NCBI RefSeq assembly: GCF_012396015.1
Contig: NZ_JAAXOQ010000002.1
Location: 124,001-188,000, forward strand
From: Tsukamurella spumae
GTDB taxonomy: Bacteria > Actinomycetota > Actinomycetes > Mycobacteriales > Mycobacteriaceae
Direction: 5' to 3'
Length of the DNA stretch: 64,000 bases
Shown: one piece after another, positions 38,972-43,343 of the stretch
How positions within the stretch are numbered: the stretch's first letter is position 1
Layout: each line of letters begins with the position of its first letter
Position numbers and translations under genes: made by a program
Notes under the pieces: model-generated
What the model was told of the DNA's origin: nothing
The model's database searches: none
The model's input: the letters and a program-made list of their open reading frames with translations, nothing else

Positions 38972-40063
38972 ATGAGTGAGTCGGCCGTCAGTGCGCCGCG
39001 CGTCGTCATGGTGACGGGCGCGTCCACCTTCGTGGGCGGCTACCTCGTGCGCCGGCTCGCCCAGCGGCCGGACATCGAGCGCGTGATCGGGGTCGACGCG
39101 GTGCCGCCGACCAAGGCGCTGCACCGGCGGATGGAGCCCGCAGAGTTCATCCGCGTCGACTACCGCAGCCACGTCTTCGGCAAGATCATGGCGACCAACG
39201 AGGTGGACACGGTGGTCCACTGCTCCACCTCGGTCACCGACAACCACTTCCCCTCGGCGTCCACGAAGGACGCGATCGTGTTCGGCTCGATGCGGGTGTT
39301 CGCGGCCTGCCAGAAGTCGGAGACGGTTAAGCGGGTCGTCATGCGCTCCTCGACCCAGGTGTACGGCTCCGGATCGCGCAACCCCGCGCTGGTCACCGAG
39401 GATCTGGTCGGCGGCGCCGCCGCGAGTGGCCACCCGCGTGACCTGCTCGACGCGGAGGCCTACGCCCGCAGCATGGCCCGCCGTCGTACCGACATCGACC
39501 TGACGGTGATGCGGCTCGCCCCCATCCTCGGCCCCAACATCGAGACCCTGCTCGGTTCGCTGTTCGAGCGGCCCGTGGTGCCCTCGATCATCGGGCGCGA
39601 CGCCCGGCTGCAGCTGCTGCACCAGGACGACGCGCTGGGCGCGCTGGAGCACGCCGTGGTCGCGGGGAGGGCGGGCACGTTCAACATCGCCGGCGACGGT
39701 GCCATCTCCATGTCGCAGGCCATTCGCCTGTCGGGGCGGATGCCGCTCCCGGTGGTCAAACCCGCCTTCGGGCCGGCCGTCGCCGCTATCCGCGGCCGGG
39801 GTCGGTACACGACCGACAAGGTGCAGCTCGCCTACCTCAGCTTCGGCAACGCCTTCGACACGACGCGCATGCGGCAGGACCTCGGCTTCGCGCCGCGGTT
39901 CACCACGCGCCAGGTGATGGAAGACGTCGCCCGCCACGGCCCGGCAGAACCTACAATCGGTGTGGAGTCGATCGTGGGCGTCGAGCAGCGGGTCACGGCC
40001 CTGGCTCGACGGTTCGCGGGAATCGGCTCTTCAGGACGGCACGGCTGGACGGTAGATCAATGA
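38972..40063 (+). CDS. NAD-dependent epimerase/dehydratase (extended SDR), Rv0501-like
   Basis: 363 residues. The Rossmann motif VMVTGASTFVGGYLVRRL opens the protein, and a long substrate domain follows. The usual YxxxK is weak: STQVYGSG is present but the catalytic Lys is not evident, with AEAYARSMARR in its place. ATG 38972 lies six bases after TACTCT (38960-38965), leaderless. It overlaps the acyltransferase gene (ATGA). Annotated galE2 in mycobacteria, but the substrate is unproven. Confidence 0.8.
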   Translation: MSESAVSAPRVVMVTGASTFVGGYLVRRLAQRPDIERVIGVDAVPPTKALHRRMEPAEFIRVDYRSHVFGKIMATNEVDTVVHCSTSVTDNHFPSASTKDAIVFGSMRVFAACQKSETVKRVVMRSSTQVYGSGSRNPALVTEDLVGGAAASGHPRDLLDAEAYARSMARRRTDIDLTVMRLAPILGPNIETLLGSLFERPVVPSIIGRDARLQLLHQDDALGALEHAVVAGRAGTFNIAGDGAISMSQAIRLSGRMPLPVVKPAFGPAVAAIRGRGRYTTDKVQLAYLSFGNAFDTTRMRQDLGFAPRFTTRQVMEDVARHGPAEPTIGVESIVGVEQRVTALARRFAGIGSSGRHGWTVDQ

Positions 40064-41127
40064 CCAACCCATCAGGCTCACAGCACGCGAAGGTGCTGCA
40101 GTTGCCCGTGTCCATCGACACCGCCCGCAGCGAGGGACGCGAGCGCGCGCAGCAGCGGCACCCGTCCGCCCTCACCGGCACCCCCGCCCCGTCGGCCCCG
40201 GCCCGTGAGGCCACGGTGCACGCCCTCAACCCCGACTACCTGGCCGCGGCGCAGCCCGCCGAGCCCGGCCCGGGGTGGCGCGAGCGCGCCGCGGAATCGG
40301 TGGTCGACGGTGCCGCCTTCGTCCGTGAGCGCCTCACCGGCGACTACGACATCGACCCCTTCGGTTTCGATCCGCACCTCACCGACGCCGTGTTCCTGCC
40401 GGCGTTGCGCCCGATGTACGACAAGTGGTTCCGGGTGGACTCCACGGGCACCGAGAACCTGCCCCGCGAGGGCGGTGCGCTGCTGGTGGCGAACCACTCC
40501 GGCGTGATCCCGCTGGACGGGCTGATGTCGGCCGTCGCAGTGCACGACAACCATCCGGACCAGCGCCATCTGCGGCTGCTGGCGGCGGACCTGGCGTTCG
40601 AGTACCCGTTCATCGGCGAGGTCGCGCGCAAGATGGGCGCCACCGTCGCCTGCAATGCCGACGCGGAGGCACTGCTCGCCCGCGGCGAGCTCGTGGCGGT
40701 GTGGCCCGAGGGGTTCAAGGGCATCGGCAAGCTCTACCGCGACCGGTACAAGCTGCAGCGCTTCGGCCGGGGCGGTTTCGTGACCGCCGCGATCCGCGCG
40801 CAGGTACCGATCATCCCCGTGTCCATCGTGGGCGCCGAGGAGATCTACCCGATGCTGGCGGACGTCAAGCCCGTCGCGCGTCTGCTGGGCCTGCCGTACG
40901 CGCCGATCACGCCGCTGTTCCCGTGGCTCGGACCGCTGGGCATGGTCCCGCTGCCGTCGAAGTGGCACATCGAGTTCGGCGAGCCGATCGCGACGGACCA
41001 CTTCACCGAGGCCGATGCGGACGATCCCATGGTCGTCTTCGAGCTCACCGACAACGTGCGCGAGACCATCCAGCAGTCGCTGTACCGCATCCTCGCGCGC
41101 CGGAAGAACATCTTCCAGGACTTCTAG
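40060..41127 (+). CDS. Lysophospholipid acyltransferase (PlsC/LPLAT family), Rv0502-like
   Basis: 355 residues. A disordered N-terminus of about 100 residues precedes the acyltransferase domain with the NHSGVIPLDGLM block (a variant of HX4D), VAVWPEGFKGIGK and VPIIPVSIVGAEE. It transfers an acyl chain to a glycerolipid or glycolipid at the membrane. Coupled to the epimerase by ATGA. Downstream lies the left arm of the inverted-repeat unit, whose palindrome could act as its terminator. Confidence 0.87.
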   Translation: MTNPSGSQHAKVLQLPVSIDTARSEGRERAQQRHPSALTGTPAPSAPAREATVHALNPDYLAAAQPAEPGPGWRERAAESVVDGAAFVRERLTGDYDIDPFGFDPHLTDAVFLPALRPMYDKWFRVDSTGTENLPREGGALLVANHSGVIPLDGLMSAVAVHDNHPDQRHLRLLAADLAFEYPFIGEVARKMGATVACNADAEALLARGELVAVWPEGFKGIGKLYRDRYKLQRFGRGGFVTAAIRAQVPIIPVSIVGAEEIYPMLADVKPVARLLGLPYAPITPLFPWLGPLGMVPLPSKWHIEFGEPIATDHFTEADADDPMVVFELTDNVRETIQQSLYRILARRKNIFQDF

Positions 41128-41187
41128 GTCCGAGGTCCGCCTCGGCAGCCCGACGGTGTCCTTCCGCTCCGGTGCGGACCGTGCCCG

Positions 41188-41271
41188 GGGCGGACCGCGG
41201 TCCACAGATCGGTCTTGCTTCTTCATAACGTTGCAACGTTATGAAGAAGGTGAACCGATAGCGGCAGATCC
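41188..41271 (+). repeat. Left inverted repeat with 32-bp perfect palindrome
   Basis: Contains GGGCGGACCGCGGTCCAC at its outer end and ACCGATAGCGGCAG at its inner end. Between them a 32-bp perfect palindrome spans 41218-41249, with half CTTCTTCATAACGTTG. The repeat aligns with the reverse complement of 42255-42339 with a few mismatches and short indels. Confidence 0.85.
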
Positions 41272-41354
41272 GGGAGTCGACGAACCGCATCGGGGTTTCC
41301 CGTCGATGAGCCAGAATGCAGGTGGACGGCGTGGGGGCGCCGACGGGGGTGAAC

Positions 41355-42278
41355 ATGGCTGACGATGAGCCGGTCGAATTCCGGCATCGCGACGAGCTGT
41401 TGGCGCTGGGTGCGACCGATCGGCAGATCCGCGTCTGGCAGCAGAAGAACAGAATGACCCGCGTGTGGCGCGGCGCCTACCACCTCGGTGGGCGATTGCC
41501 GCCGTGGGAGGAGTTGCGGCTCAGCGCGATCGCCGCCGCGCAGAGATCGAGCGACGCGACGGTACTCAGTCACGCGGCAGCGGCCGCGGTGCACGGGATG
41601 GCGACACTGAACTCCGATTGGAAGACAGTCGACTTCACGTGTGACGGCGTGCGCGGCGGAACGAAGCGGGGGCGCCGCAGACTGCACGTCCGGCGATTGG
41701 ACGCGGAGGACGTCGTGGTGGTCGACGGGGTGACGGTGACGTCGATCGCGCGCACTGCGCTCGATCTCGCTCTGGCCGGCGACTTCGTGGCGGCGGTCTG
41801 TGCGCTGGACGCGGCGTTGCGGATGGGGGTCGTGCGGGCGGATCTGGAGGCGGCGATAGCGAGGCTGGGCCGGCGTCAGGGGATCGCGAATCTGCTTGCG
41901 GCGCTGGAGGAGGCGTCGCCGCTGTCGGAATCCGTCGGCGAGTCGCGCAGCCGAGCGCTGATGCTCAAGTGGCCCGAGATCCCGCGCCCGGAGCTGCAGC
42001 GGGAGCTCTTCAACGAAGCGGGCGCTCTCGAGGCGCGGGTCGACTTCTTGTGGGCCGAGCGCGTGGTCGGCGAGTTCGACGGCAAGGGGAAGCAGGAGGG
42101 CGGCTTCACCTCGGAGCAGCGGATCCAGCGCGACAGCCTGCTGATGAGCCGGAACCTGTACCCGACGCACTGGGACTGGGACGACTGCGAGGAACCCGAC
42201 CGCCTCCGGAACAGGCTCCACGACGCCCTCGGGCCCTTCGGTCTGCTGCTCGACGGATCCTGCCGCTATCGGTCCTGA
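41355..42278 (+). CDS. AbiEi-like antitoxin-domain protein with DUF559/VSR-type nuclease-like C-terminus
   Basis: 307 residues. The N-terminal winged-helix AbiEi-like part has RDELLALGATDRQIRVWQQ and MTRVWRGAYHLGG, then LSHAAAAAVHGM and VDGVTVTSIARTALDLA, the usual order in actinobacterial proteins of this type. The C-terminus ARVDFLWAERVVGEFDGKGK retains a D-x(n)-E-x-D-G-K pattern like PD-(D/E)XK nucleases. No AbiEii-type toxin gene is adjacent. ATG 41355 has a GGGGGTG upstream; ATG 41316 is longer. The gene is enclosed by large inverted repeats. Confidence 0.72.
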   Translation: MADDEPVEFRHRDELLALGATDRQIRVWQQKNRMTRVWRGAYHLGGRLPPWEELRLSAIAAAQRSSDATVLSHAAAAAVHGMATLNSDWKTVDFTCDGVRGGTKRGRRRLHVRRLDAEDVVVVDGVTVTSIARTALDLALAGDFVAAVCALDAALRMGVVRADLEAAIARLGRRQGIANLLAALEEASPLSESVGESRSRALMLKWPEIPRPELQRELFNEAGALEARVDFLWAERVVGEFDGKGKQEGGFTSEQRIQRDSLLMSRNLYPTHWDWDDCEEPDRLRNRLHDALGPFGLLLDGSCRYRS

Positions 42279-42339
42279 CTCTGCATAACGCTGCAGCGTT
42301 ATGCAGAGTCAGGACTGATCGGTGGACCGCGGTCCGCCC
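42255..42339 (-). repeat. Right inverted repeat with 44-bp perfect palindrome
   Basis: Mirror of the left repeat. A perfect 44-bp palindrome (42272-42315) has the core CATAACGCTGCAGCGTTATG, against CATAACGTTGCAACGTTATG on the left, so the core differs by a compensated base pair. It covers the last codons and stop of the AbiEi-like gene and would form a strong hairpin in its mRNA. Confidence 0.85.
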
Positions 42340-42351
42340 GGAGGACGGCTG

Positions 42352-42439
42352 CCGGAGGGGCGGCACCGTCGGGCTTGCGCGGGTGAGACGGCGCCCGAGC
42401 CGGAGGGTGGCACCGTCGGGCTTGCGCGGGTGAGACGGC
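42352..42439. repeat. Two direct copies of a 40-bp sequence
   Basis: 42352-42392 and 42400-42439 are near-identical, period 48, differing only at GGGGCGG versus GGGTGG. Each contains GGCACCGTCGGGCTTGCG and ends GGGTGAGACGGC. They lie between the inverted-repeat unit and the stop of the HAD phosphatase gene. No coding function seen. Confidence 0.8.
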
Positions 42440-42449
42440 TGCGCGACCG

Positions 42450-43343
42450 TCAGTCGTCGCTGAAGTGCTTGATCAGCGCGGCTGCGCCGCCGATGGCGAC
42501 GCCGACGCCGATGGCGGTGGGGACGCCGATCTTGGCGGCCTTGCGGCCGGTGCGGTAGTCGCGGATCTCCCAGCCCCGAACCCGGGCGACATCACGCAGG
42601 TCGGAATCCGGGTTGATGGCGACGGCGGTGCCGACCAGGGAGAGCATCGGCACGTCGTTGTGGGAGTCGCTGTACGCGGTGCAGCGCTTGAGGTTCAGGC
42701 CCTCGCGGATCGCCAGCGACCGCACGGCGTGGGCCTTGCCGAGGCCGTGCAGGATGTCGCCGACGAGCTTGCCGGTGAAGACACCGTCCTGCGACTCGGC
42801 CACCGTGCCGAGCGCGCCCGTCAGTCCCAGCCGGTCCGCGATCGTCTGCGCCAGCTCGACCGGGGTGGCGGTGACCAGCCACACCTGTTGGCCGGCGTCG
42901 AGGTGCATCTGCGCCAGCGCGCGGGTACCGGGCCAGATCTTGTCGGCGATGATCTCGTCGTAGATCTCCTCGCCGACGGCCTTGAGCTCCTCCGTCGAGC
43001 GGCCGGCGATGAAGGACAGCGCCTTCTCGCGACCCGCGGCCACGTCCTCGCTGTTCTCCTTGCCGGTGAGCCGGAACTTGGCCTGCGCCCACACGGCCGA
43101 CGCGAGGTCGGAGTAGCTGAAGTAGTTGCGTGCGGCCAGGCCACGGGCGAAGTGCACGATCGACGCGCCCTGGACCATTGTGTTGTCCACGTCGAAGAAG
43201 GCGGCGGCCGTCAGATCCGGCAGCACCGCGCCGTCCTCGCGGCCCTCCTTCTCGAGCAGGAGCGAGTGTGCGGCATCGGCGCTCGCCTCGCCCGCCGCGC
43301 TCTGCCGACGTTCGTCAGCGCTGGCCTGGTCGGACAAGGGCAC
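42450..43343 (-). CDS. HAD-superfamily IB phosphatase (SerB-like, Rv0505c type)
   Basis: 297 residues. The nucleophile motif [13 protein letters not shown] is followed by [11 protein letters not shown] (motif II), a Lys in LNLKRC and the acidic motif [13 protein letters not shown]-terminal hydrophobic tail ([20 protein letters not shown]) may anchor it in the membrane. It is annotated SerB1 in mycobacteria but the family also includes lysophosphatidate-type phosphatases, which would fit the acyltransferase next door. GTG 43343 is the longest start; TTG 43337 has a better-placed GGGAGG. Confidence 0.83.

Follow-up and report, generated by a model that had tools for sequence, protein, structure and literature searches.

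We describe a gene-plus-hairpin cassette in a 64,000-nucleotide (nt) stretch of the Tsukamurella spumae genome (assembly GCF_012396015.1, contig NZ_JAAXOQ010000002.1, positions 124,001–188,000; hereafter referred to as the window). A 307-residue gene at 41355–42278 on the plus strand sits between two palindromic arms in inverted orientation. The encoded protein joins an AbiEi-like part to a putative nuclease domain, and arms of this kind bracket its homologues widely, diverge together with the protein and occur on their own elsewhere. The cassette is probably a nuclease-driven unit resembling the REPtrons of repetitive extragenic palindromic (REP) sequences, in that a dedicated nuclease gene is combined with two inverted, lineage-specific hairpin repeats that are also dispersed as solo copies. 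Below, the window genome is coded G000 (contig C12); genomes with homologues carry G-numbers and the stretches taken from them L-numbers.

Two inverted palindromic arms enclose the gene

The arms (41179–41267 and 42260–42348) are 89 nt each and 81% complementary, in agreement with the original prediction, made from this DNA, of ~85-bp inverted repeats around an AbiEi-like gene. The unit common to the cassette and the solo copies is ~76 bp long. It covers 41192–41267 on the left (outer end GGACCGCGGTCC, inner end AGCGGCAG) and, inverted, 42260–42335 on the right, where it contains the stop codon of the gene; the left unit also occurs solo elsewhere in the genus. Each arm holds a perfect palindrome, evident both in the sequence, as predicted, and in the fold: one of 32 bp centred on TTGCAA on the left (41218–41249) and one of 44 bp on the right (42272–42315), none of these features being assigned to a strand. 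When the arms were folded as DNA and compared with 200 shuffles, as had been suggested, the z scores were -5.7 for the left (41218–41249 side) and -9.0 for the right. In a test for mirrored flanks over 39 window genes, the cassette gene scored 110 and the next best 36. An Rfam search of 40900–42600 returned no match.

The compensated base pair by which the two arms had been said to differ proved to be part of a wider pattern. Across 21 arms (10 from cassettes and 11 of 15 solo copies, the four incomplete solos being excluded), two-sided changes occupied 46 cells, compared with 22.6 in shuffles and 2–8 when the pairing was slid. Pairing kept in this way is compatible with selection for hairpin formation, for termination or for a symmetric site bound by a protein, so that terminator and regulatory readings stay alongside the one we favour.

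Arms bracket the homologues and diverge with the protein

Bracketing was scored by aligning upstream DNA to the reverse complement of downstream DNA, with a threshold of 32, which is where the 99th percentile falls for 5338 mismatched pairs drawn across genera (scores at the very top of this control run as high as 590 and are inflated, presumably because some records overlap or are nearly identical). Inverted arms were found around 54 of 79 actinobacterial homologues; of 80 loci, only L182, which ends at the gene, was not scored. As a control, neighbouring genes from 68 of the loci, some with windows cut by locus ends, reached 32 in 3 of 119 cases, the highest at 41. The same score was attained by 20 of 28 further best matches in the host order (30 loci were run; L230 and L235, at a contig end, are left out), by 15 of 20 weaker matches in that order, two of them helped by simple sequence, and by 27 of the 38 distant Tsukamurella paralogues scored, for which the 95th percentile of a within-genus control that includes orthologous sites is 38. 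The gene family itself has matches in 120 of 150 genomes of the host order at E ≤ 1e-15.

From 92 loci scored, 65 elements were kept at an arm score of ≥45, and in 48 of these no more than 1 of 100 shuffles reached the palindrome score of the left arm. With one duplicate taken out, arms were common to 24 of 25 element pairs whose proteins are ≥70% identical, to 4 of 135 pairs at 50–70% identity, and to none of the 1728 pairs at 30–50% or the 128 pairs below 30%; the 65 elements fall into 51 families without any 12-mer in common. Thus, the arm is no fixed motif and diverges with the protein. TGCA stands at the centre of 19 of 60 arms, against 2.3 expected, and is enriched without being universal. 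A fourfold motif per arm was also considered and is not claimed as universal: of 25 arm families, 17 had the outer/inner repeat at p ≤ 0.05, and the window's own family had p 1.0.

The nearest homologues (53–73% identity; G015, G003, G005, G014, G010 and G008) all lie at other sites, each with its own inverted arm pair of different sequence; G015, G003 and G005 have a common site and arm type. The copies of G010 and G008 are broken by stops, and G002 has a truncated gene copy with the left arm only. The suggestion that the window's arms might be found around other AbiEi-like genes therefore holds for the inverted arrangement, whereas the arm sequence itself is particular to each lineage.

An AbiEi-like part fused to a nuclease-like domain

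PADLOC matched the window protein to AbiEi. In the predicted fold, residues 4–188 (41364–41918, plus strand) form an AbiEi-like winged helix plus core, the fold of the AbiEi antitoxins of type IV toxin–antitoxin (TA) systems (6y8q, Rv2827c), and residues 193–297 (41931–42245, plus strand) resemble the EDxHD homing endonuclease I-Bth0305I (3r3p), with the Vsr-like catalytic fold of such enzymes. D230, E240, D242 and K246 (conserved as D230 and E240-F-D-G-x-x-K246) are invariant across the family and are candidates for the E-D-x-H-D catalytic residues. The extra nuclease-like domain sets the protein apart from the AbiEi antitoxins. An upstream ATG at 41316 is possible for the gene. Pfam and NCBIfam profiles gave nothing usable for the window protein, and a profile search of PDB sequences gave nothing credible. 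Among 10 homologues checked, Pfam AbiEi_4 scored above its cut-off in L103 alone; this homologue had no match in phages and three in plasmid records, all from Tsukamurella tyrosinosolvens. One family member is annotated as 'AbiEi family antitoxin'.

The window gene is under purifying selection, with dN/dS of 0.10–0.19 over 10 pairs from the five genomes that have the cassette at this site. The original description of the unit as non-autonomous does not fit a gene that encodes its own putative nuclease and is so conserved, and its description as a defence cassette found no support, the likeness to defence proteins being limited to the AbiEi part.

The arms could serve regulation or defence as operator or recognition sites, with the protein autoregulating through its AbiEi part and its nuclease acting on foreign DNA. 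Besides the PADLOC match, this agrees with the binding of promoter inverted repeats by AbiEi-family antitoxins, as stated in PMC7319586. However, autoregulation needs no second full arm past the stop codon. At the window locus the neighbours are acyltransferase and HAD-phosphatase genes, with no AbiEii nucleotidyltransferase toxin gene beside the window gene. Together with the REP-like copy number of arms in one genus (see below), these points make the operator or defence reading quite unlikely.

Solo arms are dispersed in three genera

In a genus coded g19, the cognate arm motif had 40–148 matches per genome in 13 of 13 genomes and the backward pattern 0–1, with about 20–75 hairpins per genome; the solo copies read as examples have a 20-bp stem and a variable loop of ~18 nt. 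Ten genomes outside g19 had 0–5 motif matches (backward controls, 0–3); one genome of a neighbouring genus had 13. In abundance and form, the g19 arms are REP-like.

Copy numbers are low in Gordonia and Tsukamurella. All three Gordonia genomes with one particular element (G190, G194 and G195) had strong matches to a 74-nt arm of it, at 3, 5 and 6 places, respectively, beyond the element's own arms; none of the 56 others did. Weak matches, to related arms, were found in G165, G183 and G215, which carry related elements, and 53 of the 59 Gordonia genomes had no match; solo counts from the related-element search are lower bounds. A candidate for the exact empty site of a Gordonia solo was set aside as not clean: G194 has a ~49-kb insert there and G190 the same right end. 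By eye, the ends of this stretch (G194:C37:4647-53411) look like inverted terminal repeats, and G195 has a solo arm there instead. In L349 (~430–1205; G194:C83), a pair of genes reading by eye as a VapBC-like TA system abuts a solo arm, with the junction at the arm border; G190 and G195 lack the pair at the aligned position. In L343 (~1745–2626; G195:C1:46546-47425), two arms lie 0.75 kb apart around a gene outside this gene family, one that reads by eye as an esterase, and this arm pair is also present in G194 (L348).

In Tsukamurella we found 15 solo copies, 11 with the full unit and both ends and 4 incomplete, at about six distinct loci as grouped from their flanks, partly by eye. Eight genomes have at least 1–3 solos each, including all 5 in which the cassette occupies the window site and at least 3 of the other 11; these are lower bounds, part of the first candidates having been scored. 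The window genome's own solo lies at G000:C56 (~164366). Among 14 genomes compared at this spot, G000 and G009 have the solo, G015 has a different hairpin next to what looks like a leftover of the solo's outer end, and 10 have unrelated hairpins or short spacers; the right flank of G006 was not found in its stretch. The spot and its orthologues (L397–L410), which are convergent intergenic regions, carry unrelated hairpin repeats that differ by species, and one family (GTGAATCCACGG...) recurs in several. These hairpins are possibly arm families of other elements.

Solo arms bear on a further explanation, that the arms are ordinary bidirectional terminators which insulate the gene as well as its convergent neighbours, with gene conversion keeping the two arms alike. 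The stop codon lies inside the window's right arm, 19 of the 33 elements whose neighbours a simple rule could class lie between convergent genes (a count without a background rate), and the window genome's own solo sits where unrelated hairpins are found in other species. At least a secondary part in termination is favoured by the position of the stop codon and by the hot spot of hairpins at G000:C56. As an account of the arms as a whole the terminator reading is nevertheless unlikely: mirrored flanks are rare at neighbouring genes of the same loci (3 of 119), and the arm sequence tracks the gene lineage, with matching copies dispersed. The concern that such palindromes might stand at loci without cargo was justified in so far as solo arms exist, the best-read one at a terminator-like hairpin spot, but bracketing by both arms is widespread in the gene family, which plain terminators do not account for.

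The cassette is present and absent between species

The window gene is flanked by an acyltransferase gene (40060–41127) on one side and a convergent HAD-phosphatase gene on the other, and the HAD neighbour was found in all 16 Tsukamurella genomes searched. Five of them (G000, G006, G007, G009 and G013) have the cassette with both arms at the window site in the same orientation. In seven (G001, G002, G004, G008, G011, G012 and G014) the site is empty, the acyltransferase ending ≤330 bp from the HAD stop with no gene of this kind between, and in the remaining four (G003, G005, G010 and G015) it holds a different sequence. The proposal of a discrete cassette with hairpin ends in the acyltransferase–phosphatase neighbourhood is thus borne out, and the empty sites and further copies that it called for were both found, solo arms included.

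The empty site of G002 has a terminator-like hairpin, CCGACGGTGC...GCACCGTCG, whose stem is like the sequence just outside the arms of the occupied genomes. In the window, a convergent terminator-like stem lies outside the arms, its left half (GCCCGACGGTG) at 41148–41158 and its right half at 42364–42374, neither with an assigned strand. Immediately beyond the right arm, a 35-nt sequence (GGGCGGCACCGTCGGGCTTGCGCGGGTGAGACGGC) is present as two nearly identical direct copies, at 42358–42392 and 42405–42439, each of which contains the outer stem.

At one Gordonia site compared in 12 genomes, with four stretches (L290–L293) left out of the count, six lack the element (60–172 bp between the flanking genes), two have other genes and four have the element or a related one. 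Compared with L280 (G190) and L281 (G194), L279 (G195) lacks the left arm and ~40 bp outside it, with the break at the arm's inner border. A gene reading by eye as dihydrofolate-reductase-like lies between the right arm and the flank in G190 and G195 and is missing in G194.

Comparison with known systems

The closest known arrangements are REPtrons, in which a RAYT (TnpA-REP) gene goes with REPs or REPINs, and TIRtrons (PMC3733652; PMC3116915). Our unit shares with them a single gene flanked by inverted palindromic repeats, a repeat type tied to the gene lineage, dispersed hairpin-forming solos and, in some cases, overlap of the gene end with a repeat. The likeness to elements moved by single-strand transposases that the original prediction had seen thus appears to be one of architecture. 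In contrast to the REPtron enzyme, which is a Y1 tyrosine (HUH) transposase, the protein here consists, by structure and profiles, of AbiEi and nuclease-like domains, and the arms are ~60–80 bp long as opposed to 20–40 bp for REPs.

A RAYT/Y1 protein as the mover was examined and rejected: in a search aimed at the Y1_Tnp (RAYT-type) family and no other transposase family, 13 of 14 genomes had no member. Hairpin ends resemble those of IS200/IS605 and REP elements, and one of the g19 genomes (G113) does match Y1_Tnp, both of which would suit arms and cassettes that are carried along in trans by a different transposase, a RAYT for instance. The scarcity of Y1_Tnp and the co-divergence of the arms with the AbiEi-nuclease gene make this very improbable.

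According to PMC3943268, I-Bth0305I binds as a dimer to a target of almost 60 bp, and the known EDxHD homing endonucleases are mostly phage enzymes. The window protein is like them in its predicted catalytic-domain fold, and the reported ~60-bp dimer target matches the arm size; it differs in the AbiEi-like fusion, in being chromosomal and in that no intron or intein was seen. To our knowledge, the known EDxHD homing endonucleases have no terminal palindromes. The open-access PMC literature, covered by titles and abstract starts and exclusive of subscription papers and outside preprints, gave no description of the gene/hairpin pair, nor of arms like these in a homing endonuclease or AbiE system.

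A tentative mechanism

A more specific proposal, which we make tentatively, is that these are actinobacterial REP-like mobile repeats maintained by an AbiEi/homing-endonuclease fusion: a metal-dependent nuclease, and not an HUH transposase, would disperse the hairpins, and nuclease and hairpin would co-evolve in each lineage. We infer arm binding by the protein, cleavage, cleavage-driven dispersal and termination by the arms as follows. The AbiEi-like part, as a dimer, would most likely bind the inverted half-sites of the ~60–76-bp palindrome, and the EDxHD-type domain would most likely nick or cut DNA at hairpin or target sites. Repair of the cut may then place copies of the arms, and on rare occasions of the entire cassette, in intergenic sites; they would be tolerated there because they may also end transcription.

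Several observations weigh against a nuclease-driven mobile unit. Twenty-five of the 79 homologues have no arms by our test, and the catalytic assignment of the nuclease domain draws solely on fold and conservation. We found no exact recent insertion with clean junctions, occupied and empty sites being in different species, and no target-site duplication was seen by eye at five loci. The solo places in G190, G194 and G195 are, with a single exception, common to another of the three (one match, L346, by eye), which suggests that movement is slow or past. Three Tsukamurella genomes have solos without the cassette at the window site. In g19, G148, G154 and G160 have weak homologues only, yet 40–90 motif matches, so that the presence of repeats can outlive or go beyond that of a matching gene; in G148, with 90 matches, the gene copy between two arms is frameshifted and split over two frames (L391; G148:C14:68300-70400). 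An arm pair on C11 of the same genome flanks a gene that reads as a biotin carboxylase, unrelated to the family, and paired solos can thus bracket other genes.

REP-type repeats are widespread, and their described dedicated partner is the RAYT transposase. If our reading is true, they would have a second, unrelated partner, and the gene-plus-hairpin arrangement would have evolved independently. It would also supply a hypothesis of function for a gene family common in the host order, and many natural enzyme/palindrome pairs with which to test how such proteins choose their DNA sites.
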